The position numbers were made by a program, and so were the translations under genes. This document shows positions 8,401 through 58,000 of a stretch of DNA of 64,000 bases, in pieces. Every line of letters begins with the position of its first letter. Positions within the stretch are counted from its first letter, which is position 1. This DNA comes from Patellaria atrata CBS 101060. Taxonomy: Eukaryota > Ascomycota > Dothideomycetes > Patellariales > Patellariaceae. The stretch spans positions 1,910,052 through 1,974,051 of the forward strand of contig MU006090.1 in the NCBI GenBank assembly GCA_010093705.1, given 5' to 3'. Below the pieces are notes generated by a model. That model saw only the letters and a list, made by a program, of their open reading frames with translations, ran no database searches and was not told the origin of the DNA.

Positions 8401-11400
8401 AAGACGAACCAGTTTTTCACGCTGAATTTATGGTTTTCGAAGTACTCCTTCTGATATAAAGGCGTGGTAACGCAAGCAAGGAGGACCATCGCAACGATGG
8501 CGGCATAAATAAAAGCCGAGAATGCGTACCATACCGGGGTTGATGGTGCCACGCCTTCAATTCTCTCGCCGCCACGTCCAGCACCTACGATCCGTTGGCA
8601 GAGTTTACGTATGCGGTTGTCTGGAGCGAAGATGAACAGAGACACATTGTACGACTTATGCTTCCGTAGGTATTCCCTTTGCGCTATCTTACGCCTTTCC
8701 GTGGCCGCGACGACTTCCTTTGCCATTAATCGGGGGTCAAGGTCCTGGTATGCTTTGGAAAACTCTAGACGAGAGTAGAATGGGTTAGGCTCCTTGTTGC
8801 GTACTAGACTAAGGGCTCGCTCCCATAGTGAAGAAATCCATCCGGCAGAGACTACCATTGTTGGTTGATGCCTAAGACCTAGGTGAGGTTCATCATGTGA
8901 AGGTGTTTCGAGCGGTTGTTCGTTCTGATCGTCCAGGAAATCTCTGACAACAGCATCTTTAAGTAGCATTTCTGTAGCCGCAGAGCCATAATCCAAGGGA
9001 TCTCTGCGTCGAGCGCTCGCTTGACCCAATTTGAAGATGGATGATAATGAAAGATTACCGTGGGATGATCCGCCGAGCTCCTTCTGTTGCAAGAATGCTT
9101 TAACTTGTTGCAATCGCTTCTCATCCTCTGATACGTCGAAGTTCTCCTGAATGACAGCAATGAACATATTCAAGACAATGAAGTTGGCCAAAATGTACCA
9201 GAGAATGAAAAATGCTGCGCCCATCCACCCTGTATTATGCCTCACGTCAAATGTAGTCACGTTGTATAAAATTTCTGTCCAGTTCTCGCTCGAGAGCACC
9301 TGGTACATCCCAAGAAAGGAGTTGTAGATAGTCGCAAACGTGACTTGAATGGTCTCTCCATCAGCATTTACGGGAGGGATTTCACCACGAAACATTTGCG
9401 CAGCGAAGATGGCGGCAAGGAATGTTAGAAGGAATACAAAAAGGATAAGGTTCAGAAGACCAGTGACATTCCCTAGGACGATCATGATGAGGTCCCGAGT
9501 TAAAGACACAGCAAGAACAACCCGGTATATCCGCATGATTTGGAAGATCGTCAGCCATTGGTAAGCTTGACCTGAGTTGTGTATCTTGGGTATCTGCATG
9601 ATTGCCGTAATTACTGCTATAGCGAGATCCACCATATTCTGTTTCGAACGGAAGAAGTCCCGGCGGTACGCGACCATGCGGGATCCTATGTCGAGGACAA
9701 GAATAAGTGTGACGACAGTTTCAGAACCATTGATGAAGCGTTCTCTACTATCGCTCATGCTAGCGCTACGTAAGGCCTGACAGACCAAACCATAGGCAAT
9801 GACCACGATCCAAACCCAAAAAGTCTTATCGTAGAATTCTTTCAGAGTGTCCTTCTTGCGCTGGGACTCCATCTCTAAGTCGTTTTCCTCGTCCAATTGA
9901 GGCACATCCTCTTCTGCAGTGAAGGCACTCGCTTTGCTCTCCTCTCGAATAACTTGAAATGAAGAAGTAATGACTGCGATAAGCAAGTTGATCAACCAGA
10001 GTGTCATGATCACGATACCAGCTGCGAAGAAGAGTGATGCAGCGAGATACTCGCTATCAGTGAGGTAATACATCAAGTCCGAAAACGTATTCGATGACAT
10101 TAGAACAAATACGAGCTCCAAGGACTGAAAGATATTGTCGAAGCTTACTGTACCATTATATGGATTATCACCCTCGACGCAGAGAGAATTCTGTGGGCAT
10201 AAGAACCCTTTATGCTTAGACGTCCCATTTTGGCCGTCAGCTTTGAGCCAGGGCATTTTATTTCCTTCTTTGTCGAGATAACCACCACAAAACTGGAATT
10301 CTCCAATAGCATTATTGGTAAAGTTCTTTATCCCCTCTGGATCCACCCAGACGCAGGTTCTTCGGAAACTTGACTTGAAGCTTTGTACACCGATAATGGC
10401 GAAGAGAAGCCAAAAAAAGCTGATCAGGAATGCAACATTTACAAGAAGCGGAGCAGCTTTCTTCAGACTTCGGAGGATAACTGTGGTGCCACTTGTAAGG
10501 CTGAGCAGTCTCAAGATGCGTAAACAGCTGAGCATGCGAAAGACATATGCGTGTCTGCTATGTTCAACACCGAATACACTGATGCAGAAGCTAATCCAAA
10601 ACGATACTACAGCAAGGAAATCCAATCTATTGAACGAGTGGCGAAGAAACGCACGGTGGGCCAGTCTAGCGCGCTGTTGCTGTCTTGAGTCTCCAGAAAT
10701 ATCCGGATATATTTGGTTAGTCGTGAAGGTCCGAATGATAGAAGGACCGAACGTGGTATCAGTACGTTTTACGGATGGCTGACGTTCGGGCGCTAGGATG
10801 GATTGAGCCTTTTGTATTACCGCCTGTCTGATGCTCAGTTGTCGATTGATTGTACTGTACTCCACGGGATTAATGATAAAGCCAGAGACAATGACTCTAA
10901 TGATAATTTCGATCGTGTAGATAATGAACAGAACCAGGAGGCCCCAGTTAATCCAAGAATCCCAAAATCGCTTTGGGCGCGGATGATCGACAACATCACT
11001 TGCCGCATCTACAGTGAGCAGTACGGTCTGGATAATGATAAGGACAAGGAGGACGGGTTCAGTAGCAGGGTGAACTAATAGGTCACAAAGTTTTTGTCTC
11101 AACCTGTTGTCCGCGGAAAATATACCAAGAGATTTCCCCCGTAACGGGTTCTGATATTTCCATCCAGTACCCGCAGGGAACTCAGGTGGCGCGGTGAGCT
11201 TCTCAACAGGAGATTCGGAACCATAAGTTCCATCGTGACCGAATTCTGGTTCCTCGGGTACTGATTGTCGCTCCTGACGTCGATATGGTTTGACGGAAGA
11301 TTTACGTCTTATACTCCTCTCAGCTAGCTCCGGTTCGTTACTCAAATTGACAACACGCTGAGACATATTACGAACGATAGTCCCGGCTCTGTGTAGTGGG

Positions 11401-12167
11401 GATGAAGCGGATCCTCTGCGGTTGTGCTGTGGTTCCGTTGCTCCTATTTCAGCCACATGTAGAGAATCTCCAAACCTTGCACTAGGTGAAGGTCCCTCAG
11501 GAGTAAGAAAACGTACACTCTGGAAGCTGGTTCTATGATGACGTTGTCCTACAGGTGTAGAATGCTCAGCGCCGCTGATAGGTTGTAGGTTTCTTGAGTT
11601 CGTTAAGGGTGCAGTATCGGAATAAGAGGGAGAGAAGTAACCCTGCTGGTCCTCCACGTCATTGGTCGCGGGTGTATTCACAATAGTTCCAGGAGTAGTC
11701 AAAGACTGCGAACTATCTCTACTCCCATCCCCGTACGGTGCAATCCACGGGGATGATTCGCGCTGGGTCTCCCCTTGAAAACTTAACCCAGCAAACCCTA
11801 TGGCGGCTTGGAATCCGCCCACATCGTCGATTGGAGAGATATCGGCCGCCTCATGATGAGAATGTTGGAAACTAGTCTGTAGTGGCGGTGATGCTATGCT
11901 TCGTGAGGATTCACCGTTCCTTCTCATCGTCGGACTAGGTGAACGCTCAATGATAGGAGCATATCTTGAGCCCCAACTTGTTCTCGCCGTGAGAGATTCT
12001 CTATTTCTTAACAAATCCCTACCCCGATCACTTAACGTCCTACGGTGTTCCGCCCTGCCTTGACCTTCATATTCATGATTATCTGGTGGCCTGTGGAGAT
12101 CTCTGAGAGGTATTGATTGGAGTGGGGAGGAGCGGTTGCGCCTATGGTTAGGATCGGTTGGGTCCAT
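5488..12167 (-). CDS. cch1: voltage-gated calcium channel alpha subunit Cch1
   Basis: High-affinity plasma-membrane Ca2+ channel, the pore subunit that works with Mid1 in fungal calcium entry and stress or pheromone responses. Four exons; introns at 8055-8105, 6516-6566 and 6131-6195, all in phase, giving 2170 aa (usual size for Cch1). A disordered Ser/Arg-rich N-terminus (1-340) precedes four six-helix repeats, at roughly 355-760, 790-1030, 1225-1500 and 1540-1800. Pore loops read LMSSNTFSDL (I), VLSSENWTEI (II), IVSQEGWTDV (III) and TSIGEGWNQI (IV), so the filter positions are N/E/E/E. S4-like helices are clear in I (RILRLLSL) and III (LRALRLLNV), weaker in IV. An EF-hand-like segment (WAEFDPDGTGFI) sits near 1830, after the last S6. 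A Ser-rich cytoplasmic tail follows. Identification is firm. Confidence 0.96.
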
Positions 12168-13666
12168 TGATGACTAGGTTTCTGAAGACGCTCCGAATTT
12201 TGCTGGAATACTTCATCGGGTCGAAGAAGGGATTATATTAGCGCAAGTTATTTCGTAGATCTGCGTTGCGATTTTAGACGATAAGACGAGGAGTGAATGC
12301 GAAATGGGAGGCCCAGCCTTTTCCGCAGTGGTAGAATGAGGGATTTTATTATAGTGAAGGTGTATGTTCAATTAGGGAAGAGTTCATGTACTCATAAGTC
12401 GCGATCTAGACGTTTCCAGGTCGCAGAGGTGGTGGTGTTGAAGGTAAGGTGAGGTTGCAAGGTTGCGCGTCAGCCTTCAGGTACAGATAGAAATTATGGG
12501 GTGTTATGGATGCTTCGCTGCATTTAGCTGCTTACACACGTCTGTACGAAGATCAACAGGGTCGATGCTTGGCTAGTAAATCTATAGCAAGAACTAACAT
12601 GTTTTTGAATTAACGAGTTCCTTTAAGAACTGTATTTTATCATCTGCCTCAGTTTCAATTGACATCAGTACTCCGTACGGAGAAGTTTACAAGTCAAGAT
12701 AGTCGCACTCCCTGACTAAATATCACGAACCCCTCTCGAACATGTGAAAAGCTGAAGAGCTCGCCCTATGCTGAGAAGTGCTATTCTTAGTAACCAACGT
12801 TCCTAAATTACCTGACAGATAGCATGATGGTTCGCACAGAACACAACCCTAAAATGAAATGTGTATTATTTGTTGATACCGCTTTGTATTCCGTAGGTCA
12901 ACAGAAAACCGTCAAAACTGATGAGTATCTTCGTGAATAGGAGCCATCACGCGCCCCAACTGACAGCCTGCATAATCCTGCCTTCGGAGTGGGCGAGTTT
13001 GCTAGAGCTGAAAGTGTATCATCCATTGAGCAGTCCTCAGCACTACGATAATATTGACCAAAAATAGGGATTTCTAGGCATAATACTACCATAGACCTAA
13101 CAGAATGTCCGTCAAGATGCAGTAGGTAAGGCAAGCCGTGGATGAGAGACGACATACAATATCACAGCCGGTCTTTCGGCAATAAGGTATGCTGATACGT
13201 AGGGTACTCACGATACTCCATACTGTTCAAGTGGAGACGAGAGACTATCCGATACCTTAAATTGAACCTGATGCAATCTGGTGGACGGCTATCTTGTTTA
13301 CCTAAGGTGCTCTTCTAGGATATTGTATAACTGTATATCTCCGAATAATGTGACAGAATGTGAGGTGGTTAGAATTGAAGTTGTGGGCGTTGGGCAGGGA
13401 TAATTTACGGCTGTCCCGCTTTCGGTACCTAGACTTTGCCAAGCCGCAACGCGAACTTCATCATTCCAGAAAGTTTGGAGGTCGCTCCGAGCCTCACCCA
13501 GCACCAGAATTAGACAAGCCACGCCCTCCATTCGGCCCTATATCCGATTCACGCCTTCTCCAGTCAAACACTATATTAACGCGTATAGCTTATACCCTTT
13601 GCTGCCCTAAAAGATCTATCTCTCCGCCGCAAAGAACGCGTCGCCGCCAGGCACGCCATCCCAATC
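12168..13666. other. divergent promoter region, no gene seen
   Basis: This is 1.5 kb between the divergently transcribed cch1 and PHD-finger genes. Frames of up to 85 codons (for example 12898-13155 minus) have no recognisable features. It should carry both promoters and leaders; no strong TATA box or repeat was identified. Confidence 0.6.
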
Positions 13667-28759: not shown

Positions 28760-30518
28760 CTACTCCTCTTCAACGGGAGCCTCCTCATCGTACTCCTCCT
28801 CGCCCTCGGAGATAGAGGCCTCTTGGTATTGCTGGTACTCGGAGACTAGATCGTTCATGTTGCTCTCAGCCTCAGTGAACTCCATCTCGTCCATACCCTC
28901 TCCAGTATACCAATGCAAGAAAGCCTTGCGACGAAACATAGCAGTGAACTGGTCACCAACACGCTTGAAAAGCTCCTGGATGGAGGTAGAGTTGCCGACG
29001 AAGGTGGAGGACATCTTGAGACCGCGTGGTGGAATGGAGCAGAGAGCAGTCTGGACGTTATTGGGGATCCACTCAACGAAATAGGACGAGTTCTTGTTTT
29101 GCACATTACGGACTTGGTCCTCAACCTCCTTCATGGAGACCTTGCCACGGCTAGATTGATGGTTAGTAAGAGTGATTTGTGAATAAATAAATGTGACTTA
29201 CAAGATAGCAGAGCAAGTGAGGTAACGACCATTTCTGAAATCAGAAGCAGCCATCATGTTCTTTGGGTCGAACATTTGTTGAGTCAACTCTGGGACGGTG
29301 ACAGCACGGAATGAGTAAGCACCACGACTGGTGAGAGGAGCGAATCCAACCATGAAGAAATGCAGACGAGGGAATGGAACCATATTGACAGCCAATTTTC
29401 GGAGATCAGAGTTGAGCTGACCAGGGAACCTGAGACAGGTAGTGACACCGGACATGACAGCGGAGACGAGATGGTTCAAATCGCCATATGATGGGTTGTT
29501 AAGCTTAAGAGTCCTCATGCAAATGTCATAGAGAGCCTGAGATGGTTAGTTTATGGTACACCTTCGTATATTTATTTGCATACCTCATTGTCAATGCAGA
29601 AAGTCTCGTCAGAGTTCTCAACGAGCTGGTGAACAGATAGAGTGGCGTTATAAGGCTCAACGACAGTATCTGAGACCTTTGGAGATGGGACAACGGAGAA
29701 AGTCGCCATCATACGGTCTGGGAACTCCTCACGAATCTTGGAGATAAGGAGTGTACCCATACCGGCTCCGGTACCACCACCAAGGGAGTGAGTAATCTGG
29801 AAACCTTGGAGGCAATCGCATCCCTCTGCCTCACGACGCACGACGTCAAGGACCTGGTCCACTAACTCGGCACCCTCAGTGTAGTGGCCCTTAGCCCAAT
29901 TATTACCAGCGCCAGATTGACCGAAAACGAAGTTGTCGGGACGGAAAAGTTGACCGAAAGGGCCAGCTCGGACAGCATCCATGGTACCCGGCTCCAAGTC
30001 GACGAGGACGGCACGAGGAACGAACTTGTTGCCAGATGCCTATGTATGTTAATATATAAGGTATAGCTCTTTGAGACTGTGGACGTGCCTCATTGAAGTA
30101 GACATTCATACGTTCCAATTGAAGGTCAGAGGTGCCATTGTACCTAGTTGGAGTCAGTAATTGTTACGCGTGGGTAAAAAGGTGATTGAGTCGAAGAGCA
30201 ACGCACACTCCTGATCCATCAAGACCATGTTCTCCGGAGATAATTTGCCTGTTGACAGTTCAGTGTTTGTTTGCAATATGGTTTTGTTGGAGCCTAAAGG
30301 GGCGTACCAGAACGCAGCACCGATTTGGTTACCCTACATTCAATCAGCAAAACCATCATAGAGCAAGAGAGATTTTAGTTCTTACGCATTGGCCGGTTTG
30401 AAGATGGACCTAAACACCAGAAAGCTCGAGTTAGCAAATTTCTACAATTGTTGTTGTGCAGGGTTTGTCGCGTGAAAACAGTGGAGAGCGGGGAGAGTAA
30501 ACATACAATTTCACGCAT
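28760..30518 (-). CDS. tub2: beta-tubulin, 446 aa
   Basis: GTP-binding microtubule subunit. Eight exons (12, 24, 26, 42, 55, 456, 335, 391 nt). Introns at 30410-30506, 30334-30385, 30249-30307, 30144-30206, 30040-30088, 29537-29583 and 29151-29201. Total length is the family norm. The MREI autoregulatory tetrapeptide forms the first exon. The GTP-binding GGGTGAGMG loop and an acidic [13 protein letters not shown] tail are present. The intron after YFNE uses a GC donor (GCACGT). Positions linked to benzimidazole resistance read H6, F167, E198 and F200, the sensitive-type residues. The short 5' exons match the usual fungal tub2 barcode region. Confidence 0.97.
30040..30088 (-). other. GC-AG intron in beta-tubulin
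   Basis: On the coding strand the exon ends AATGAG and continues GCACGT; the branch ATTAACA and acceptor ATAG follow, then GCATCTGGC (ASG). No GT donor can preserve NEASGNKF, so a GC-AG intron is the straightforward reading. Confidence 0.85.
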
Positions 30519-40627: not shown

Positions 40628-42337
40628 TGCAATTCTTGCATGTGAAGGGGAAAAGAACGAAACGATATTATCTCTGTGATCCAAACATCTTGAGAGCAGC
40701 AGGTAAGATGGTTATAAAAGTTGTTGCTCATGGAGCTTCAGTTTTCGAAAGAGATGGCGGCTCGAATTGGTGAGGTCATTTTGGTGAGGTGTGCACGGAC
40801 TCTTTGTCGATGGATTTCACGTCTCATTAGGTTGGAATACAGAGACAACCGGTGAGTGTTAAGAGTCATTGGGTTCTATGCTTACGGTCTGCTAATATCT
40901 ATTCCGCTAGTTCCGAGTATGAGGCTTGGATATGGAGATCAATACAGTGTAGTGGATGGGAGACATCGGGGCGTACTGTACGGTACTGTAAGGTCCCTCA
41001 CCGAGTCACTACTCAGAATCTCACCAGCTAACACACGCTGAATATATGAATTGGTGAAATTGAGGGTCACGCAAGGTGGCTGGATATCAGATGGCTGGAT
41101 ATCAGATGGTTGGGGACCAGGATAAGTGAGATGGTTGAGCAGGCAATACTATAAGATAGCACAGGCACCCACTCCAGATAGTTGACAATCAATGAACACT
41201 CTTACCCTTCTATCTACTACCTTAGCTCATACCTGTGTGGATTTTATCATGAATAGCACGGCATGTTATTAGGCTGTACGCGCTCCAGTTTGTACAGTAC
41301 AGTACAGGCCAGGCGTGCAGAGATGGAGCCATCCAGTAAGGGCCATCCAGTAAAGGCCATCCAGTAAAGGCCATTCAGTAAGGGTCATTCAGTGAGGGCC
41401 ATTCAGTGAGGGCCATTCAGTGAGGGCCATTCAGTAAGGGCCATTCAATGAGGACCATTCAATGAGCATTCAGGGGATTAACGACCCGTACTTGCGCTGT
41501 ACAGTACACAAGATCATTATGGTACATGTACATGCGAATAGTAGATTCTTTTGAAGTGATAAAAAAATTCCTTGACAAAGGATAATCGGAGTCGGGTTTT
41601 GCAGAGGTTGTCCTTTATACTGTACGCCTTGTCCGTACTGTACCGTACAGTAGACACCTCCGGTCCTCCGCAACTTAACCACGCATCCGTACATACGTAT
41701 GTATATGTCCATATCTTACCCATCAAGGAAACCTGTTTCTACCCGTACAGAAGACGCGCGCCTACATAAACCACTGTAGTTACAGTATATCTTCGTATAA
41801 TGTTCTGGAGACGAGATGAGATGAAGAAAATCAAGAAAATGAGAAACGGTCGGTTCATCTCAAGTTCCGCCAAGACGAGCTGCCACGTCCACGTTTTTCG
41901 GCAATTTGACCAATCAGTGACATCGCCTAACCTTGAATTCCCCTTTTGGCCTTCCCATCTTAAATCTTGACAGCCAACAACTCATCCCCGTCAAAGGTCA
42001 AGTCAACCTTCAATTCTATCAAACCCTCTTACCCTCCCGCAATGCTGCTCCAACCCGGCAACGCGTCAAGAAACATCTTGCATACCCAAATTTACCCCTC
42101 AGTCTCTCCTTTCGCAGAACTACACTCTCTTTTGTAATACAACTTAATCATCAGCGCGTCAGCTCTCAACACTCATTACACATCCCCGGACTGAACGCGT
42201 CTGCTTGGCTGGACAAGCTCGAATAGCTACAACACCACTATCCTGACCGTATTCGTATGGCCATCGCAGGTTCCATCTCTCTCCGATAACTATCGTGGGA
42301 GGTTTGGACTGCTTCTGTTGAGTAATTGGTCCTTTGG
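40628..42337. other. divergent promoter region with minisatellite
   Basis: This is 1.7 kb between hem25 and the giant coiled-coil gene. It contains several GTACxGTAC palindromes (40973-40986, 41292-41300, 41635-41648), a duplicated GGATATCAGATGGCT block near 41090, and the 14-bp tandem array annotated separately. No gene recognised. Confidence 0.65.
41327..41466. repeat. 14-bp minisatellite, ten copies
   Basis: The unit GGCCATTCAGTGAG (variants with CCAGTAAA, CAGTAAG, CAATGAG) is repeated ten times without spacing changes. Variants are ordered: CCAGTAAA types lie left and CAATGAG types right, the usual signature of local duplication. Confidence 0.93.
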
Positions 42338-45300
42338 ATGCAAGCTCGACGAGCCTTTACCCCCTCTCCGACCCTACCGTCATCACCGCCTCCTTTCCCT
42401 ACGAGCCAGGATCGTTCAAACGTAGGTCCTACAGAGGACCGGCTCGATTCTTCCCCCGCGCGGACTCTTTGGACGGCTCCCTCGCCTACCCAGACTCTTG
42501 GATACTCAAGCCCAGAGCTCCCTGGCTTACCCTCACTCCCCAATCTAGGGGTTGTGTCTAATAGTCCGTCTTCTTCGGTTCAGCATCCGACTGATACCTC
42601 ATACTACACTGCCAGTTGGGGTTCGCCATACAGGAGACCACCACCGGGTGTTGCGCGATCGGCGGAATACGGATCCTGGGGTTTGAATAGTGACGAAGTA
42701 GAGGGTGAATCCTCAGAGATACAATTCGGGTTAGATCATCTGCTTCCATCTTTAGTCGAGAGGGATCCAGAGTTTGGACTGGAACATCTCTTGCCCTCGC
42801 TTCTCCCTGCCGAGATTCAAGCAGAGCTGGTAACACCTACGCGACCGTCCCATCCCACAGCTCCTGAACAAGTACAAGCTACTCCTCGCCCTATCGATAG
42901 ATCATCACTCCGAGACCTTGATCAGAGCTTCTTTACTGATTCCGGAAAGGACTGGATCAGAGAATATATTACCAGTCAGTTGGACACAGAGGAGGGAAAA
43001 CGGTGGAGCGACGAGTCTGGAGACAGTAAAACTCAAGGTGGGAGCACGAGAAGACGTACACCGCAGGGCAAGGAGTTCTTACTGGCTGAAAATTCGAGCA
43101 ATACCACATCGCCTTTGGCGCAGCGACAGAAGCCAAAGACACATAAGTCTCGTCAAAGTAATTTGACCCTGAGACAAGAAGATTTCTTTGAGCTCCTCAA
43201 CCAGAAAGGAAAGCAAGAGTTCGAAAAGATGATGTCCTCAAGGTACGCAGATCCTGCGGTAGCACAACAAGCACCCACGCGAAAACCAGCTTCTTCTGTT
43301 GCGGTTGAAAAACCACTCCCTCCATCCCCCGATGCTGCTGCTCAACCTTCATTGCCTCGCCCGAATGGGCGGATTCAACTCTCCAGACACGATCCAAACT
43401 TCGGCAAAAGTCAGCCGACTATGCCTCTTGAAAATCACAACTCAGTCGATGCTGTACCCCAAGTCGCGGAGCCGGTTCCCCAGCAGGTTGAGACTAAGCC
43501 TCCGCCCCAGAGTAGCACTCCAGTCCCCCGACTCAAGAAACGTGTTCTTTGGCGAGGTAGGAATTGCATGATATTGATTCCTCGGGATCCCACTAGGGGC
43601 ACTGAAGGAGGTCCTCCCAAACCTCTTGAACCGTCAGAAGTAGCTGCTCGCTTGCGAAGATATGAGTCAGCAGGTTACGATGTCCGAGGTTATGATCACC
43701 GTCAAGGTGAAGATGACTTTGTGGAGGAGAAGGGGACTGCTCAGAATCGAGAAATATACCCAACCCCAGAGGAAGACTATGAAGTTCGAAAGAGCAAAAA
43801 CTTCGTCGTCCATGTCCCAAACAGAGCAGATTGGGAGGAATATATGAACTTCCTCACCGAGCAGAAGCTACGAGCATTGGGTGTTTCGTTGGGCGACGAC
43901 GAACCACAAGAATCACCTGTTCTATCCCGTCGATCATCCTCTCAATACCCACCTTTACCATTCTCTCCTCCTATACCAACATCATCTTCAGACAGTCAAC
44001 GACCAGTATTCCCTGGCGTTATTAGGACCGGGTCATTCCCTGTTGGTCCTTCCCCTGGCCATTCGTCAACCCGCTCAATCGCGTCACCTATATCGATATT
44101 TGGTAACCCTAGAGGGGCTATGCAGCATATGCACCGACACTCGACATTCACTTCTCCGGCAAGTTTCATGCATAAACAATCGAGTTCACCTGGAATTTCG
44201 ACATGGTCTCCACAGCAGTATCTTAATCAACAGGGTTTTGCGCGAGGGGGTTCACCTGCTCTTCCTCCGCTTCCTAACAGTAGGCCGGACCTGTCAGACA
44301 TTGTATCTCCCAATTCTCCATTTGGATCGAAGGCACAGCAACAATTTCCTTTTCCTCAGCAGAACGATGTTCTGTTAGCCCAACTTCAGCAGCAGCAACA
44401 ACTTTTGCAGGCGCAACTCATGCAGCAGCAGCAGCAGCAGCAGCAGCAACATGGTTATTCTAATACACGACCATCGTCAACGCTGCAGGAAGTTCCAGAA
44501 GCTGAATATGAGGATGAACCACCTGTTCAAAATAATACCGTTGCACGTGAAGATCCGGTAATTGCGGTTCCTCAGCCACGCGGTCACCAACACAACATCA
44601 GTGCAGGTCTTGAACGCGACATTCACAGTGCTGAATATCATCTAGAAAAGGCGATTGATAAGCAACTGGATGAAGGTGGTGACTTTAACACTGAGTCTAG
44701 ATTTGGAGAGCCCGGGCTTGTGAAGAATGCCCAACCGAAAGCAAATGGAGAAATATGGCATGATAGGACCATGCCTGTGCAACATATCTTACATCAACCA
44801 CAACCTCACAATAGGGCTCATTCTTTGACTAAGAGACCACAGTCCGGCACGCTTGATTTTGGGATCGATGAAGGCCAATCCATTGCCGAAGATGATACAG
44901 TCAATGCTAAGAGTCCCTCCGAAGTCGAGACCAACCCTAGCGTAAATGGTGATGCTGATGGTAGCACTCTTCACTCAAAGAAGCCGTCAGAGATTATCAA
45001 CTCTTGGAGTGATGGACAGCTACCACGGGAGAATGCTGAGCCACAGTTAGCAAATCACCACCCTCGCCCAAGCCATGTATCCAAACCATCAATGTCGAAG
45101 CTCAATGTTGAAGCGAAGGAGTTCAAGTTCAACCCAGCGGCATCCTTCAGTCCTAATAGCTTTACATTCTCCGCATCGTCTTTCGAACAGTCGAAGGCTT
45201 CTGCGCCATCATCTCATGTGGCAAGTAACCAACACTCCACTAAATCATCCGTGGAGGGTATGTCTAGGACTTTGAATGTCGAAGCACCAAGTTTCAAGCC

Positions 45301-48300
45301 GAGTGGTTTCACAAACTTCAGCATGCCCACCGGCGAATTTTGTTTCTTGTCCAAGGGGCTATCTTTCAAGCCAACTGCGCCCGAGTTCAAGCCAGGCTCT
45401 TCCGTCTCCAAAACAGTGACAGATCCTGTTCCCGAGGAAGCGGAAGATCCTAACCGTATCTTTAAACTGAAGTTTGGAGAAATTGTTAGGCCTGCTAAGC
45501 AATCGAAAGCTGTCCCGATTGTACGACCCGATCGAAACGCTCATATGAATGATGAATCAATCCAAGAGGACGAATTTGGCCGGCTAGGTCAAGCTGACGG
45601 ATATCAAAAACGCGTAAGGAGAGGACCTGGTGGGGATGGAAATGATGTTCCTCAGTTTGCTATTCCCACTCATCCTCTAAGTGAGACGACCGACTTCCAG
45701 ACCATCAGGAAGGACGAATCAAGGGATCAGAAAGTAAAACCTTTAGACAAGGAAAATGTTGCGCCAGATGACGGATCCGATGTTGCTCAACACTCCAGCG
45801 CAACGCCGTTCGCGCTTCAAGAGAAAGCGAACATGGGTACGGTGGATATACCTTCTCTCGATCAAAATCTGCCCAGCTTTCCAGCACCTTCTCAAAGAGC
45901 CGCGTCAGCAGAACCTACAGCCCCTATCAAGAAGCATGCAAGCAAGAACTCTTTATCTGCTACTGCGAAACCATTCGAGTTCAGATCGAACAATGGAGCT
46001 TTCGACTTTGGATTGCACGTCACCAAACCTTCATTCGAACAGGCTGATAAGGTTGAGCGGAGCCAACAACTGGCGAGCGAAACTCCAACGCGCTTTCAAA
46101 GCAGAAGTCCTGCCACAACTTTCCGGCACAGTGATGATGGTTCATACAAGACTGCTCCGGAACCGAGAAGACACCTTCCGTATCCTGATAGCGAGGAGGG
46201 TGATTTCGATTCTTTTGTTCCTCCTACATACCAAGAAATTGATGACGTTATGAAACAGTTGGATGCAGAAGGATCCGATTTCGGAATCGTACAAGAGGAG
46301 GAGTCATGGGATCAGTCAAGTCCAAAGAGATTATCCAGAGATTATGATCCGACTGACCTTAGACCCGTACAACACTTCCGTAGTGATGCTCCAAGCCCAA
46401 GCCCTCGTCGTCTCTATACAAACACGCTAGATACTGGTGCTACCTCCACTCCAGTTACTCATGATCCATTCAGTGATGAACGCGCAGGGCAAGCATACGA
46501 ATCTCCCGTACATCGTCTCAACGATGGAGATGATATTCCTATTAGCGAGTGGGGTGATGTTGTATCATCAACCGAGGAAGACAAGTTCCATTCGAGGATT
46601 AACTTCTTCGATAGTCACGTTGATAATCTTATCGGTGCGGTACTATCAAAGCGTCTAGATCCTATAGAGCAGACACTACAAGCTGTTCAGGAATCAATTG
46701 GTCTATTTTCGCAACCTGACTATGCTAGACGTTCTCGGCGTAGTGCTTCTGCTATGGAAAGTGACGCCGATGATGAGGATGATGAACTACCTGCAGAATC
46801 TAATCTCCGGAACAGATCACCACGGAAGGATCGTAAGCTGGAGAAGATGCGAAGCATTATTGTCGAGGCTCTTGCAGCTTATCAGCCCCAGCAAGAAATA
46901 CGCGAATCTCCTTCCATTGATCCCACCGAGTTTTACCAGGCGCTTGCGGATATCAAGACCTCTTTCGCAAGATCAACTGCGACGAATGACTATATCGAGA
47001 ATATCAAAGAAGTCATCCAAAGTGCATTGTCTGATCAGCAACTTGCAGTCATTGAGAGTCGCGAAAATGATATCATCAATGAAAGCACTACACGTATTTC
47101 GGAGCTAGAGAACGCTTTGAAGGAGGCCAACCTACGGTTGGAGTCTGAAGTTGAAAATCACCGTTCTACACAGCAACGACATAATGATACTCAGCGATTA
47201 CTAGATCTAACCGAAGAAGAATTGAGCCTTCTCAAAGAGTCTTCAAGAGACGACAGGAATAAACTTCGAGCTGCTACAGAGGAAATACATTCAGTCAGGT
47301 TGAATAGTGTAACTTTAGAAGCAGCCCAGGATGATTTACGTAAGAAGCTGTCCGCAGTTACTGCTCAAAACGAGGCGCTGGAAGCTACACTAGAGGAATA
47401 TCGGATTTCAAGCGCGCAGTGGCGGAAAGACATTGATGAAGCCGACCAGGAGAAGTCTCGTCTAAAGAGTGTTACGGCTGCATTACAAATACAAATTGAA
47501 GAGGCCATGCAGATTAGAAGTACGATGCGCGACAGACTTGACATTCTGCAAAGAGAGATGATCACCGCTGCTGGACAGGTAGCTCATGAGAAATCTCAAT
47601 GGCAAGATGAGATCCAAGAACACCGCACGAGATATGAGATATTAAGTGCCAGGATCGAAGCCGAAGCCCGCACTCGGGAGAGATTAGAAAAGGAAATGGA
47701 ACGGCTTGAGTTACAGGAGCGGGAAGCTATGAGGTTGAAAGTTACGTTGGAACATACTCAACACGCTTATTCCCGTCTTGAAGAAACCGTTAATACTTTG
47801 CGTCTCGAAAATACAGAGCACCAGAAGACAGCTGAACGCTATGAGCGCGAATTCCGCGAAGCTCGAGATGCTGGCCGTGTAGAAGTAGAACGCACCCGGC
47901 GCCTTATGGAGGCCGACGTTGAAAACGCCAACAACCAAGTTAACATGGTCCGTGCAGACCTCGAAAGAGAGTTGACTAGAGTTCGAGCAGAGCTTGACAG
48001 CGTTCGTATGGAAGCTGATACTACTAAAGAAAAACATGCACTCATGCTCGAGCAAGAAGCTGATGCGCGTAGAGATGCACTACGTGAAGCTAGCAATGCT
48101 CGTAACATCGCTTTCAAAGAACAGCATCACAAGTACGAGCAACATGTAAATGAGCTCAAACAGCAACATAGCAGGGCTATCCATATCGCACACGAGGACA
48201 AGGAACGTGCGGAACTACATCTTAATGAGCGTCTTGCTCTCTCTGATGCTAAGGTTGAACATCTTCGAGATAAAGTACTGCACTTGGAGGAAAAGCTTGA

Positions 48301-49225
48301 AGTCGCCAAGTCTGCTGCACAAGCTGCTGTTGAGGCTGCCAAAGCCGCCAAAGTTCCAGCATCTGCAGTCTCTTCTGGTTCATATGAGAAGGTCTCTCCT
48401 CAAGCGCTCCGTGAATCTATTCTCGTCTTGCAAGAACAGCTTCAGGAACGAGAGGGACGAATCGAGAGCCTCGAACACCAATTGTCATCGCTTGACACTG
48501 AGGCTCCGAACAAGTTGAAGGAGCGTGATACTGAGATCGGTTGGCTTAGAGAGCTCCTTGGTGTTCGTGTTGACGACTTATCTGATTTGATTACTGCTCT
48601 ATCACAACCAGCGTATGACCGCGAGGCGGTGCGGGACGCTGCCATTCGCATCCGCTCCAACTTGCAAATGGAGCAACAAGAGAAGGAAAGATTGATCAAT
48701 GGTGGTCAAAACTTCCCTACTCTCGCAAGCTTATCCAATTTCGCTTCTCCAAAAGCAGTACAACTTGCTGCCGCATTCGGGAACTGGCGTAAGGGAAATG
48801 GGTCGAGTAAACTAGCACAGACTTCATCTTCGAATTCCAGCCGAACTCAGACGCCATCGAAACCATCTCCAGCAGTCTCTACTCCAGGGTTCTTGTCAGG
48901 ACTCATGACTCCTCCAACATCTAACCTCCGCCGTACACCGGAACCCAGCAGTGCCGGTGCTTCTAAAGCACCACAAATGCCTACAGGACGGCTTGAGCGT
49001 GGATTAGATCTCCCCAGCTTGTCTTCAAGACGACAGGAGAAGCAAGCTATCCCATCAACCCCGCCACTGTTACGCAAGGCATCATATGATCGCGATGCCG
49101 AAGATGGGGATTACAGCGTCAATGGTTTCTATGACGACGAAGAGAGTACTATGGATGGGAATCCTGCAGATAGACAGGATAACTTTTCGAGATTTGGTCC
49201 AGGACTTCATTCTCAGTTGTCCTAA
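42338..49225 (+). CDS. giant polyQ / PAM2-like / coiled-coil protein, 2295 aa
   Basis: A single uninterrupted frame of 6.9 kb, the longest exon here. The frame is open slightly upstream, but ATG 42338 (MQARRAFTPSP) is the first ATG. Disordered Pro/Ser-rich N-terminus. A conserved-looking block lies near 395-510 (KKRVLWRGRNCMILIPRD, YESAGYDVRGYDH, VHVPNRADWEEYMNFL). A polyQ tract spans about 682-705. PAM2-like peptides occur at about 920-932 (SKLNVEAKEFKF), 977-990 (RTLNVEAPSFKPSGF) and 1008-1020 (LSFKPTAPEFKPG). A coiled coil of about 500 residues (1575-2085) and a Ser/Pro-rich tail follow. PAM2 peptides bind the MLLE domain of poly(A)-binding protein, so an mRNP scaffold role is plausible. 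I do not recognise a named ortholog. Confidence 0.9.
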   Translation: MQARRAFTPSPTLPSSPPPFPTSQDRSNVGPTEDRLDSSPARTLWTAPSPTQTLGYSSPELPGLPSLPNLGVVSNSPSSSVQHPTDTSYYTASWGSPYRRPPPGVARSAEYGSWGLNSDEVEGESSEIQFGLDHLLPSLVERDPEFGLEHLLPSLLPAEIQAELVTPTRPSHPTAPEQVQATPRPIDRSSLRDLDQSFFTDSGKDWIREYITSQLDTEEGKRWSDESGDSKTQGGSTRRRTPQGKEFLLAENSSNTTSPLAQRQKPKTHKSRQSNLTLRQEDFFELLNQKGKQEFEKMMSSRYADPAVAQQAPTRKPASSVAVEKPLPPSPDAAAQPSLPRPNGRIQLSRHDPNFGKSQPTMPLENHNSVDAVPQVAEPVPQQVETKPPPQSSTPVPRLKKRVLWRGRNCMILIPRDPTRGTEGGPPKPLEPSEVAARLRRYESAGYDVRGYDHRQGEDDFVEEKGTAQNREIYPTPEEDYEVRKSKNFVVHVPNRADWEEYMNFLTEQKLRALGVSLGDDEPQESPVLSRRSSSQYPPLPFSPPIPTSSSDSQRPVFPGVIRTGSFPVGPSPGHSSTRSIASPISIFGNPRGAMQHMHRHSTFTSPASFMHKQSSSPGISTWSPQQYLNQQGFARGGSPALPPLPNSRPDLSDIVSPNSPFGSKAQQQFPFPQQNDVLLAQLQQQQQLLQAQLMQQQQQQQQQHGYSNTRPSSTLQEVPEAEYEDEPPVQNNTVAREDPVIAVPQPRGHQHNISAGLERDIHSAEYHLEKAIDKQLDEGGDFNTESRFGEPGLVKNAQPKANGEIWHDRTMPVQHILHQPQPHNRAHSLTKRPQSGTLDFGIDEGQSIAEDDTVNAKSPSEVETNPSVNGDADGSTLHSKKPSEIINSWSDGQLPRENAEPQLANHHPRPSHVSKPSMSKLNVEAKEFKFNPAASFSPNSFTFSASSFEQSKASAPSSHVASNQHSTKSSVEGMSRTLNVEAPSFKPSGFTNFSMPTGEFCFLSKGLSFKPTAPEFKPGSSVSKTVTDPVPEEAEDPNRIFKLKFGEIVRPAKQSKAVPIVRPDRNAHMNDESIQEDEFGRLGQADGYQKRVRRGPGGDGNDVPQFAIPTHPLSETTDFQTIRKDESRDQKVKPLDKENVAPDDGSDVAQHSSATPFALQEKANMGTVDIPSLDQNLPSFPAPSQRAASAEPTAPIKKHASKNSLSATAKPFEFRSNNGAFDFGLHVTKPSFEQADKVERSQQLASETPTRFQSRSPATTFRHSDDGSYKTAPEPRRHLPYPDSEEGDFDSFVPPTYQEIDDVMKQLDAEGSDFGIVQEEESWDQSSPKRLSRDYDPTDLRPVQHFRSDAPSPSPRRLYTNTLDTGATSTPVTHDPFSDERAGQAYESPVHRLNDGDDIPISEWGDVVSSTEEDKFHSRINFFDSHVDNLIGAVLSKRLDPIEQTLQAVQESIGLFSQPDYARRSRRSASAMESDADDEDDELPAESNLRNRSPRKDRKLEKMRSIIVEALAAYQPQQEIRESPSIDPTEFYQALADIKTSFARSTATNDYIENIKEVIQSALSDQQLAVIESRENDIINESTTRISELENALKEANLRLESEVENHRSTQQRHNDTQRLLDLTEEELSLLKESSRDDRNKLRAATEEIHSVRLNSVTLEAAQDDLRKKLSAVTAQNEALEATLEEYRISSAQWRKDIDEADQEKSRLKSVTAALQIQIEEAMQIRSTMRDRLDILQREMITAAGQVAHEKSQWQDEIQEHRTRYEILSARIEAEARTRERLEKEMERLELQEREAMRLKVTLEHTQHAYSRLEETVNTLRLENTEHQKTAERYEREFREARDAGRVEVERTRRLMEADVENANNQVNMVRADLERELTRVRAELDSVRMEADTTKEKHALMLEQEADARRDALREASNARNIAFKEQHHKYEQHVNELKQQHSRAIHIAHEDKERAELHLNERLALSDAKVEHLRDKVLHLEEKLEVAKSAAQAAVEAAKAAKVPASAVSSGSYEKVSPQALRESILVLQEQLQEREGRIESLEHQLSSLDTEAPNKLKERDTEIGWLRELLGVRVDDLSDLITALSQPAYDREAVRDAAIRIRSNLQMEQQEKERLINGGQNFPTLASLSNFASPKAVQLAAAFGNWRKGNGSSKLAQTSSSNSSRTQTPSKPSPAVSTPGFLSGLMTPPTSNLRRTPEPSSAGASKAPQMPTGRLERGLDLPSLSSRRQEKQAIPSTPPLLRKASYDRDAEDGDYSVNGFYDDEESTMDGNPADRQDNFSRFGPGLHSQLS

Positions 49226-51510: not shown

Positions 51511-54257
51511 TCACTTCACAGTACTCTCAACCAACTCTCTATAAATCCTCTTCAAATCCACCACATCCGCCCTGAGTTCCTCAACCTCCTCGCTCTTCTC
51601 CCCCAACATCTCAAGCGTAGTCGCATACCTAACGCCCACCTCCTCCAACTCCCTCCTCATGCCCGCAACCCTCTCCTCAAGGCCCCTCTTCTCCTCCACC
51701 TCCCTTAAGAGCGCGACGACCTCTTCCCGCGCCCCGTCCCGCTGCGCCGCCAGCCTCGCCATCTCCTCTTTCACCACCGCCTTCTCGGACTCAAGCCGGC
51801 GGACGGCAGCGGACATGCGCTCGACGAGCTGGACCGAGGGCCCGGCCCCGGAGGCGCTGGTCGAAAGCATGTCTGCGATTGTGCGGTGGGGAGAGGACGT
51901 GGAGTCGAAGGCATCGTCGGGGTCGAAGGCGTGGATGGAGGGGGTCTGGGAGACGGAGCCGAGGTGGGATGGCGCACCATTGAGGTGTGTGGAGAGGGAG
52001 GGGAGGGAGTCTTGTCTCAGGGGTGGGGTGCCGGGGTGAGGCTGGCGGGAGGAGCGGCGCGATTGGGAGTGTGAGCGTGTGTCAGGGATGGGGGGAGGGG
52101 AGAGGGCGCCGACTTCTGAGGAGAAAGTGCGGGGGATGGGGCGGCGGTATGTGTTTTGTTCGCCGAAGGCCGGGGAGGGGGAGTGGTGCCGGCGATGGGG
52201 TTGGGAGAGTGAGGCCCCTGTCGTCGTGGGCGATTGGAGGTATTGCCCCGAGTCGACGAGCCCGAGGCCCTGATGTTGACTGTTGTTGATGTTGCTACTT
52301 TCCAGCCGCCATTTCAGTTTCTCGTCTTCGACCCGTTGCGTCATTTCCGCCTCCCACACCTTCTTCTCCTGCTCGAAGGTCTCTTTCGCGTCGTTGAGCG
52401 CTGTTTCCGCGCCGCTGAGTCGACTTTGCAACTTCGTCATCGCGGCGGCTTGCTCTTGCATATCGTGCTCCAAAGATCTCGCACGGTCGTGCACCGCTTC
52501 CAATTCCTCTTCCAGCCGGCGGGACTTCGAATTTACATCTCTCGCCTTGCGACGCACGTCAGATTCGCGTTTGACGGTCTCATCACGCTCCTTTTCGAGT
52601 GCTGCGACACGGGAGGTAAGTGTGCTTTCGATACCGTGCCAGTTCTCGCTAGCGAGGGCATATTGAGTCTGCAGGGTTTCGATTTGACGGAGTAGTTTGG
52701 TTTGTGTGTCTGTACCGGCGGTGGATTCTTCTGTGCGGGAGCGGAGGAGTTCAAGTTTGGTTTCGAGGCTCTAGGGGTAGAGATGTTTAGCGTACATAGA
52801 CAGTAAATAAGGTATGGAATAAACTTACTGTAATTTCACCCCTCAACTCGATCTCCATTACCTTCGCGTGTTCCTGCTGCCTCATCGCTCCCTCCTTGAC
52901 ATCTTTGATCTCTGCTCTCGCCCGATCTTCTACCAGCTTCTTCTGTATTTTGGTGTCTTCGATCTCATCCCGCAAGTCAGACACGATTTTCCTCTCCGCT
53001 TCCAAGGCACCGATCTGCACCCTCTTCTCCGCCTCCTCAGCCCGCGCGTCCGCTTCCGCGACCTGCCGTTTCAAATCCACGATAACGCGTGCCGCATCCT
53101 CTTTCTCGTTCCGTAAGGCCTCGACATCCTTCTCAATCCGACCCAACACCCTCATCCTTTCCGCTGCCGCCTTCTCCGCCCCTTCCGCCCTTTTGGCTCT
53201 CTCTGTCGCCTCCAGCAGCTGACGTTCGGCATTAGCCAATTTGCGTCTCAGTTCCGCGTTCGCCTTTTCCTCTTCCCCCTTTTGAGCTCGTAGCTTTTTG
53301 ATCACGTTCATGTGCTTCAGCTCCGTTTTGGACAACCTCTGACCCTCATCCAGCAGCAGCGCGATTTGCTCATCTTTGTCAGCTAGTTTGCGCTCCAGAC
53401 TACCTGGGTTAGCGTTTAAGGCGGTATTATGAGCGGCTTCTGCGGCGGTGCGGGAGAGGTATTGGAGTTTAGCTTGCAGTGCGTCGATCCGTTCTAGGTG
53501 GGAGTGGATTTCGGATGCCTGCGTTGCGTGGGCTTCGCGGAGTTGGGAGAGTTCGAGGTCAGAATCAATAGCGGAGAGTCGGGTAGGGGATGGAGGCGAG
53601 GTATCTGCATGCGTTGCGTCCAGGGAGGGGCGGGGAGATTCGAGGGATTGGCGGGGGGAGGCTTCTGGTTTATTTTCTGCCGGTTGGACTGCGATTGTGA
53701 TATCTGTGGGTTGCTCAGGAGATGGTTGTTCTGTAGGTGCTGGTAGGGGCTTAAGTGGTTCAACAGGTTCGGGCTCGATCTTCGGTTCTGATGGTTCGTC
53801 ATTTGCAGGTTGTGAAGCAGCAGCTTCGGCCGGGGCTTCAGAAGCCTTCGAATCGATGCTAGAGCGAGTAGTTTCCCCGTCTATCCCTGGTGTAGCTGTC
53901 CTGGAGGGCAACTCAGACGACTGCCTGCTGACGGGTCTTTGCCCATCCGCGCCCTTCACCACAGCCTTCGCCAGCCGTTCTTGTAGTCGATTATTAGTTT
54001 GACTTCTTGTCGAAGACGTCCTCGATATGCCTGTTCTTTGCATTAGCCCCTAGTCTTCTCAGCTCAACTGCAAATTCCGAACCTTGGTCAGTTGCTTTTG
54101 ACTGACGCGCTGCTACCTCTACCGCTCTACTCTTCGCGGAGGCTTGATCATCTTCCGCTAGAATAGTGTCGAGCCTCGACTCCAGACCTGCAACGGCGCC
54201 GGAGAGTAGGGATCCCCATCTTGAGCCTTTGTTTTGTTTGGTGGGTTGTGCGCTCAT
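51511..54257 (-). CDS. TMF/Sgm1-like golgin, 878 aa
   Basis: Golgi coiled-coil tether of the TMF (TATA element modulatory factor) family, whose yeast member Sgm1 binds Ypt6/Rab6. Three exons; introns at 54031-54082 and 52771-52828. The first intron has a weak donor (GTTCGG) and is my best reconstruction: it links SRWGSLLSGAVAGLESRLDTIL to SRTSSTRSQTNNRLQERLAKAV in frame. A Pro/Glu-rich acidic linker follows, then a long coiled coil (from about 190 to 560). A Ser/His-rich region and a C-terminal TMF domain (VERMSAAVRRLESEKAVVKE to DVVDLKRIYRELVEST) complete it. The domain order is that of TMF proteins. It converges on gankyrin; ends are about 250 bp apart. The 3' half is GC-rich. Confidence 0.88.
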
Positions 54258-55026: not shown

Positions 55027-58000
55027 TCATTGAGCCTTCTTTGACGCTATGCGCCTTCTTCTCCCTATCGATGCTGCTGGTCCACCATTCCCGAGTCTGT
55101 CTCCTTCATCTTCAATCCTGTCACTCGTTACAGAGACGATCTTAACGGAGTTCCCAAAGGCAATGGCGATGCTACGTTTATCGAGCCTCGTCGCCGGGCC
55201 GGGATTAGCGACTATGATCTGCTGATTGACTTTTCCGGCGCTCAGTGATATGTTTGCGTCGGCGGTTATATCTGATGACAACGGCTGTGTATGAAACATT
55301 CCTGTGGACGATAGTGACCAGGCTTCCCAAACCTGTGGATCCTTTAGTTTTGATTTTTCTTTCTCATTTTGATCCTGTTTTGAAAATTTGAAAGGAGATA
55401 CGTTTCGAGACGTCGTATGGCGTTTCGAGAGACCGGAGTCTTGTATCAATGGCAGCGCGGGTTGCTCCCTGATACCAAGTACAGACATAGCACCAGAAGT
55501 TTCCCAAGCACCAGGGTCATCTATCCGATAAGTCATCATTTTCGCCCTATGAATGTTATTGCAAGTAGTGTCATTATCATCATCCTGGGGTCGAAGACAG
55601 ATATTAATATCACCTTCATTGGTGAAAGTGTGCATCATACAACGTTTAGTATCGTAGTCCGTATAGACTAGAGCTAGAGATTTTACTGCGGGGCCTTGAC
55701 AAGTCCCACAAGATCGACGCTTTAGATGTATGATCCGCATGGAAACACCTTGGATATGTTCTGTTTGTATGTTTGCAACGAACTTCTTAGTCTTAACGTC
55801 AAACATGTCCACTTCATGTAATCTGACAGCCGCAAACAAGTCCAGGTTCTTTAAAGCCAGGATATATCGCACCTTGCTGACCCTCCTGTCAGCTTGGATT
55901 TGAGGTGGTAGAGAGATCAAGGGGCTAGTGTGCCAACGTCCACCTAGAGCGGCTTTTGTGATATGCATATCTCCATGTTGAGCAAGTGTCAATACTACTA
56001 CAGAGAATTCAGTAGTACCGCTCAGTTTTGAAGATATCAAAGAGCCACTGTATATACAGTGATGTTGTATCCGCTGAGTTGTAAGATCAATATCTATCAT
56101 CCAACCATCAAGAGTGACAATGAGTAAGTGGAGGGTGTTCGGATCTCCAGCTTTGAAAGATGCCATGGTGAATAGTAAGGGTTCGATATCCTTCAACGCA
56201 ACATTATGATACTGTATGAACCGCGCTCTCTCGAGGCTCCAGATTCCAATAAGGCCGGTGTCAGAACAGACAGCAAGTCGACAGCTATCCTCATCGATAG
56301 TTGATGCAATGACAGGCCAAACGGGTTTGCTTCCGGAGTCACTTTTAATGAAGTGATGGGTATAACGGCCAGTCCAACTGTCAAGATACCAACCCGACAT
56401 TGACCGATCCGTACTGATAGTAAGTAGGTGGCCTTTCCCGTTACCGGTTATATCGGCAATATCTAGTTTGTGAGATATTGGAAGAGTTTCGATAGTCAGC
56501 GTCGGTTCCGCAATTGTAGACATTGATTCATCATTTGGTATCTCATCCCATAGAAGATAATGCATCAGCAGCGTTGTGACGGCGATGCAAGAAACCAGTA
56601 TCAATACAAAGGAAAATATATGATCGGTCATAAGGGAGAAGGTTTTATGTAAGACTGAACCCGACATGTGAGGGGCAGCAGCTCTATCGGCATCTTTAAG
56701 GACGATAGTAAGCGGCTCGTAGACTCTAGCAACAAATCCAAAACCTTTTGGTTTGATAAAGCTGATGACTTCTTTTCCAGTATCGTATTCTTGCATCCGT
56801 AACCATTCACCTGGACTCCTAGCTTGGTTTATGGGTGGCAAAGAGGGCACAATCTCGTCAAGAACATGTTTGTTGCCGCGTCGCCAACCTGGCCGAAGTA
56901 GACGCAACAAGGACCTGAGTTTCTCGCCCTCCCAGAAATGGTAATTTAAGACGATGACGAAACATATCAAAAATGCCTGGCCAGCGATCCTTGTACTGCC
57001 TGGTACTCGACCTTCGCGGAAAACCATGCTACGGAAAAGGGCAGTGCTCCAGCCTTCCCGCTCGGTCCTCATGGCATTTGCATTCGTATGGATATCATTA
57101 ACTCTTTCCAGGGAGTCTCTTAGCTCTGTACGGCGAACATCGACACTCAAGACCGCAACAAAGAACGTAAGATGAAACAGAAAATCGAACGTCAATGCGA
57201 AGAAAGAAAACATGCAGAACTGTGCAACTCCTTGGTAGCTCAACTTGGAAAGAAGGTATAGTAATCCGAGATTTTGACCGACACCAGCAAATGCCAGAGG
57301 TCCGACATCACCTAGGGCTCGCGCTACACGCTCCACTGTTGGCAGCTCTGGGGATTGTTCCACGACGGTATCGACCAGACGGAACCTAGTCAAAATTGTA
57401 TGATGAGTATAGCAACGGAGAAACATTTAGCAACCCTTCAGCATTGTTCAGACTTACATATTCTCCAGTCCTAGGAAGAGGGTCAACGCTGGAAATACCT
57501 CTCTCGGAACAGTAGCTAGGTTCACATTGAACAACCCGCAAAGGGTTAGGCTAGCTAAGATAGATATGGCAACCTACGCGACATCATTAGCTTGACTCTA
57601 ACCGTGCTCACTTTTGTTCTGTTATACCTGGGTACAGAGAGCAATAAGAAGGCCCGCTTGGCTCTTGACACCCCTTAAACGTCGAAGCCTAGAGAGCACA
57701 ATCAACGACACGACACTATAGATGATTACCAAGAGAAAATCATCGCCGAATCCCATTGGTTTAAACCGGAAATCATATGTCTGGCTCCTAGCTGGTCTTC
57801 CATTTTTAGGATATATCGACCATCGGTCTGGGGCTGCCTGAGCGAGGCGCACGGATTGCTCAATCCATCTCGTTCCGACATCAGCTCCAGGAAACTCGAA
57901 AAGGGTAATGACCAAAGCATCTGCTGCCGTGAGTTTACCACTGGAAAATGATTTACCCGCAAATACGGAGCTAGGGCGAAGCGTTATGTTTAACGTCGTG

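Follow-up and report, generated by a model that had tools for sequence, protein, structure and literature searches.

The 2295-aa protein encoded by one open frame in the Patellaria atrata window (the whole stretch of DNA analysed, 64,000 nucleotides of contig MU006090.1) is most likely PxdA, the protein that links hitchhiking peroxisomes to early endosomes, on the basis of its size, its layout, its PAM2-like motifs and its gene neighbourhood. We regard its orthology to PxdA as highly probable, a matter of judgement rather than of computation in which PxdA was compared through its published description and not by alignment, and with distinctly less assurance we also favour the joint claim that the protein is PxdA and docks Pab1 via PAM2. 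The protein is a further member of the known PxdA family, and PAM2-like motifs in PxdA are already in print (PMC12991151); the addition made by this analysis is that in this ortholog the motifs have the look of canonical PAM2 and resemble those of Ataxin-2 and Pan3 from the same genome, and hence, as far as sequence can tell, would point to Pab1. The preliminary description had been unable to place the protein in a named family, a position changed by its fit to PxdA in size, layout, motif report and neighbourhood.

The gene occupies a single uninterrupted frame of 2295 codons with zero internal stops, running from an ATG at 42338 to 49225 as initially described. From stop to stop the frame covers 42326-49225, with 42338 as its first ATG and a stop codon immediately before 42326, and an extra exon upstream may exist. 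The parts of the protein other than the motifs are as follows:

42338-49225, + strand: open frame of 2295 aa, candidate PxdA ortholog (frame reading)
43541-43891, + strand: candidate small folded region, residues 402-518, RVLWRGRNC to KLRALGVSL (sequence reading)
44422-44448, + strand: polyQ tract, pure 27-base GCA repeat, residues from about 696 (repeat search)
47033-48700, + strand: predicted long helical, putatively coiled-coil, region, residues 1566-2121 (Pro-free run, AlphaFold2)
48515-48592, + strand: suggested counterpart of the conserved PxdA CC3 stretch, residues 2060-2085 (by position only, unaligned)

A Pfam scan of the protein, in which matches were kept at E values up to 10, returned PAM2 plus two families far below cut-off, both within the coil, and the N-terminal extension carries no Pfam family at or near cut-off except PAM2. 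The full-length protein gave two weak matches in the PDB (E 0.74 and 8.8). The polyQ tract lies upstream of the PAM2-like peptides, in agreement with the preliminary description. For the candidate folded region, a 128-aa query over residues 402-518 found itself as the sole match in the P. atrata genome, and a single-sequence AlphaFold2 model of residues 390-530 reached a mean pLDDT of 40.6, a value that makes it unusable for a fold. About 0.9 kb 5' of the start codon lies a tandem array of a 14-base unit in 9.6 copies (41328-41461).

Towards the C-terminus, the protein contains just one Pro-free run of at least 60 residues, which spans 477 residues (1530-2006), and single-sequence AlphaFold2 placed helices at 1566-1651, 1663-1843, 1847-2002, 2021-2073, 2078-2089 and 2095-2121. 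Within this block the pLDDT lay for the most part at 65-85 up to about residue 1990, falling to 42-60 in places, and ranged over 36-72 thereafter (mean 62.7 over the whole model). Residues 1566-2121 are thus predicted to be helical, and the long C-terminal coiled coil described at the outset stands to that extent, its coiled-coil nature being suggested by composition.

These features agree with what has been reported for PxdA (AN1156 in A. nidulans; Afu1g11450 in A. fumigatus). In A. nidulans, PxdA is described as 2236 aa long, its three coiled coils (CC1-3) occupying 1466-2115; residues 2033-2058 form a conserved stretch, and the N-terminal extension has no known domains (PMC9882315). The protein studied here has 2295 aa and predicted helices at 1566-2121, and likewise combines a long N-terminal part lacking known domains with a C-terminal coiled-coil region. 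According to the same study, PxdA sits on early endosomes in A. nidulans, where long-range peroxisome movement requires it, and among 33 fungi searched by BLAST it was found in 15 of 15 Pezizomycotina and in none of the others (PMC9882315). PAM2-like motifs lie in the N-terminal disordered region of both proteins, although a preprint of 2026, in the single sentence that mentions them, calls those of PxdA PAM2L (PMC12991151), whereas the motifs described below resemble canonical PAM2.

The gene neighbourhood also resembles that of PxdA, and two genes of the window served as synteny markers:

6528-12173, - strand: voltage-gated calcium-channel type gene, two open frames, read as Cch1
28762-30333, - strand: beta-tubulin gene exons

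The Cch1-type gene lies about 30 kb and the beta-tubulin gene about 12 kb upstream of the 2295-aa gene. In Aspergillus the calcium-channel gene is likewise near, pxdA and cchA being AN1156 and AN1168 in A. nidulans, and pxdA being Afu1g11450 and cchA Afu1g11110 in A. fumigatus. Beta-tubulin would be near as well, AN1182 and Afu1g10910 probably being benA. These two tags share one ortholog row in a protease table that cites a beta-tubulin paper. The gene order in the P. atrata window differs from that of the Aspergillus tags, so what is common is the neighbourhood and not colinearity. Downstream, the next gene with a Pfam match lies on the opposite strand and is of the TMF1 coiled-coil type (51511-54049), and a frame with a sterol-sensing domain lies at 55027-57426.

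The N-terminal part of the protein carries a cluster of PAM2-like motifs. The three PAM2-like peptides of the preliminary description are present at residues 922-931, 979-988 and 1010-1019, and we add to them a fourth, weaker peptide at 1206-1215 and a stretch further downstream with some PAM2L-like traits:

45101-45130, + strand: PAM2-like motif 1, LNVEAKEFKF, residues 922-931, without the final P (PF07145, 18.5 bits)
45272-45301, + strand: PAM2 motif 2, LNVEAPSFKP, residues 979-988, the best match (PF07145, 20.9 bits)
45365-45394, + strand: PAM2-like motif 3, FKPTAPEFKP, residues 1010-1019, without LN
45953-45982, + strand: PAM2-like motif 4, LSATAKPFEF, residues 1206-1215, weak
46193-46231, + strand: EEGDFDSFVPPTY, residues 1286-1298, acidic run and FxxP spacing, no more than a weak likeness to PAM2L

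Only motif 2 has LN, A, F and P all present, and it fits the canonical LNxxAxEFxP core except for S in place of E; motifs 1, 3 and 4 fit the core in part. The pattern LN..A..F occurs twice in the protein, against a mean of 0.0174 in shuffled versions, and two occurrences were reached in 2 of 20,000 whole-protein shuffles. Two further patterns were defined after the motifs were known, which makes their statistics flattering: [LF]NV.[AS]..F occurs twice in the protein, a count that none of 100,000 shuffles reached (273 reached one), with motifs 1 and 2 as its sole matches among the 127,996 codons that the window offers in six-frame translation, while a looser pattern that fits all four motifs reached four matches in none of 40,000 shuffles and three in one, and gave seven matches in the six frames, four of them in the 2295-aa protein. 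The two LNVEA motifs exceed chance expectation.

Scanned over the whole protein, PF07145 matched two stretches with an E value of 0.0007 and 19.5 bits, just under the cut-off of 20; in the search of the genome, motif 2 stood above that cut-off (E 0.016) and motif 1 below it (E 0.09). A third candidate in the genome search, at 16.3 bits and below cut-off, lies beside an apparent protein-kinase gene and is probably a chance match. The profile missed the PAM2 motifs of Ataxin-2 and Pan3, both in the genome search and in a direct scan of their frames, so the genome search is unfit to rank or count PAM2 proteins. When motif 2 with its flanks was compared with 177,635 PDB sequences at E values up to 10, the PAM2 peptide of Paip1 (1jh4, 3ntw) was the one match, a weak one at E 0.29, which aligned LSVNAPEFYPSGYSS with LNVEAPSFKPSGFTN over 16 residues, the PSG flank among them; PABP1 and UBR5 chains are also present in these PDB entries. 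Motifs 1 and 4 gave zero matches in the PDB, and motif 3, searched with an approximate query in which two flank letters were wrong, gave three RNA-polymerase-tail matches (E 4-6) and no PAM2 peptide.

Close counterparts were found within the same genome, where the genes of Ataxin-2 (Pbp1 type) and Pan3 were located through the LsmAD domain, the Pan3 domain and the PAN3 zinc finger. Both proteins have roles in RNA metabolism, and their PAM2 cores are very similar to those of the 2295-aa protein: in Ataxin-2 the core is FNVGAKEFRPNPGAASFNP, which with its flank reads RFNVGAKEFRPNPGAASFNPS as compared with KLNVEAKEFKFNPAASFSPNS around motif 1, and in Pan3 RFNVDSPSFTP compares with TLNVEAPSFKP at motif 2. 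Ataxin-2 and Pan3 carry LsmAD and Pan3-type domains, whereas the 2295-aa protein has no such Pfam match. The PF07145 scores, the Paip1 match and these similar motifs in Ataxin-2 and Pan3 together bear out the PAM2 reading that had been given to the peptides. Ataxin-2 also has in common with motif 1 a downstream flank of the form NP...AASF.P, which is possibly a second MLLE contact or a case of local convergence.

The expected partner is encoded in the genome as well. A genome search for MLLE found one domain, in Pab1; it is canonical, with KITGMLLEMDN as compared with KITGMLLEIDN in human PABPC1, which it matches at E about 2e-14; by our reading of the sequence, P. atrata Pab1 also shows RRM-like repeats. 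Since the PAM2 search by the same tool overlooked true sites, the genome could hold a second, divergent MLLE.

Endosomal mRNA transport was elucidated in a basidiomycete, where Rrm4, Upa1 and Upa2 take part in it. The 2295-aa protein would resemble Upa1 and Upa2 in its way of working and not by descent, as it has neither GWW nor the domains of Upa1. Descent from Upa2, the Ustilago maydis multi-PAM2 scaffold, had been left open in the preliminary description alongside convergence and was rejected: zero GWW was found in the 2295-aa protein, GWW being the C-terminal motif named for Upa2 in PMC9249222, and Upa2 is reported absent from ascomycetes (PMC7550108). The likeness to Upa2 lies in the several PAM2 motifs and in the endosomal scaffold role proposed here; Upa2 has four PAM2 motifs, our protein one full and three partial ones. 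Upa1, the FYVE, RING and ankyrin adaptor of Ustilago, was also rejected, with zero FYVE, RING or ankyrin matches in the Pfam scan; our protein is like Upa1 in having a PAM2 motif and in being a putative early-endosome protein, and differs from it in lacking FYVE, RING, ankyrin and a true PAM2L core.

The endosome-scaffold reading of the preliminary description is nevertheless supported, as it accounts best for the protein as a whole. Nothing pointed to a spindle-pole component, and kinship to PxdA, an endosomal linker, would not amount to the family of unrelated function that the preliminary description had named as a refutation. In the mechanism that we propose, the coiled-coil region would link peroxisomes to motile endosomes, as reported for A. 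nidulans PxdA, the PAM2 cluster would recruit Pab1, and Pab1 may in turn carry polyadenylated mRNPs onto the same endosomes, a step less sure than the docking of Pab1, with PxdA in part taking over the work of Ustilago Upa1 and Upa2. We offer tentatively, as a possibility, that PxdA might be the Pezizomycotina answer to Upa1/Upa2, namely one endosomal tether that takes peroxisomes via its coil and mRNPs via Pab1-bound PAM2. Recruitment of Pab1 by the PAM2 cluster would fit the situation in Sordaria, where Pab1 and GUL1 shuttle together, most likely with Rab5 endosomes as their carriers, in a group from which both Upa2 and Rrm4 are reported missing (PMC7550108). Furthermore, light-dependent development is reported to be upset when PxdA is lost but not when AcbdA is lost, and the defect seen in the pxdA deletion is described as independent of peroxisome hitchhiking; a second job of PxdA, in mRNP handling, would explain why the defect appears on loss of PxdA and not of AcbdA.

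Several alternatives have to be weighed against this reading. The protein may be PxdA, and its motifs may bind Pab1, with the contact serving no endosomal carriage of mRNA, for example if translating or stress-granule mRNPs touch endosomes and play no part in transport. We think this unlikely, though to a degree that deserves attention: according to PMC4466420, the PAM2 of Ustilago Upa1 binds Pab1 and is yet dispensable, which by analogy would count against a mechanism built on Pab1 docking, and the same kind of motif occurs in the Ataxin-2 and Pan3 of this genome; PxdA, however, is on early endosomes and Sordaria Pab1 most likely moves with endosomes, so that the two could meet there. It is improbable that the protein is instead some other coiled-coil scaffold that bears PAM2 motifs and has no name yet. 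Such a scaffold would be compatible with a comparison to PxdA that relied on description and not on alignment, with a layout of disorder plus a long coiled coil that is common, and with scans for relatives in viral and prokaryote contig collections, which are unlikely to contain fungal DNA and which gave pattern matches and no relative by tblastn, but the agreement with PxdA extends over length, layout, motif report and neighbourhood.

The remaining alternatives concern the motifs themselves. That they are PAM2L and have, like that of Upa1, an Rrm4-like MLLE domain for a partner is very improbable, even though the preprint of 2026 so names the PxdA motifs (PMC12991151) and residues 1286-1298 combine an acidic run with FxxP spacing. 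In PMC9249222 and PMC4466420, PAM2L has an acidic core, [DE][DE][DE]FVYP, with FxxP spacing and binds Rrm4 in Ustilago; this core, with its acidic run and FVYP, is absent from motifs 1-4 and only partly similar to residues 1286-1298, whereas FxP occurs in motifs 2 and 3 and LNxxA in motifs 1 and 2. In addition, the Pab1 MLLE alone was found in the genome, and ascomycetes are reported to lack Rrm4 (PMC7550108). The motifs being PAM2-like rather than PAM2L, the partner predicted from them would be Pab1 and not Rrm4. Least probable, in our estimate, is that the peptides match by chance, in a protein of 2295 residues that is mostly disordered; motifs 3 and 4 are loose and two of the patterns were picked after the fact, but so few shuffles (2/20,000) gave two LN..A..F occurrences, both LNVEA copies fall within 60 residues, and the Paip1 match reaches past the core.

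For PxdA as a Pab1-docking tether, the question at stake is how Pab1 is attached to endosomes in ascomycetes, for which an endosomal protein with canonical Pab1-binding motifs would be a direct candidate. If the proposal is true, the same molecule lets organelles and mRNAs hitchhike on moving endosomes in moulds, and point mutants could split the mRNA job of PxdA from its peroxisome job. We found no test of a PxdA-Pab1 link in the literature; among the matches listed, PxdA appears only in a phosphoproteome study (PMC8399174), and in the accessible text of a review (PMC8004493) the PAM2 and PxdA terms concern Upa2 or otherwise stand in reference titles.

Candidates for other parts of the hitchhiking machinery were also detected in the P. 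atrata genome. DUF2433, as in DipA, is present, and HOOK_N (PF19047) matched with an E value of 4e-8, with one stop within the matched stretch; the genome search with HOOK PF05622 gave no match. ACBP scored 25.9 bits, below its cut-off of 28.3, and an adjoining frame has a hydrophobic C-terminal segment, which makes a tail-anchored ACBP protein possible. The DUF2433, Hook N-terminal and ACBP candidates would be the remaining known parts of this machinery. In Aspergillus, the pxdA tags are among the genes up-regulated in wetA-deletion conidia (PMC6106085).
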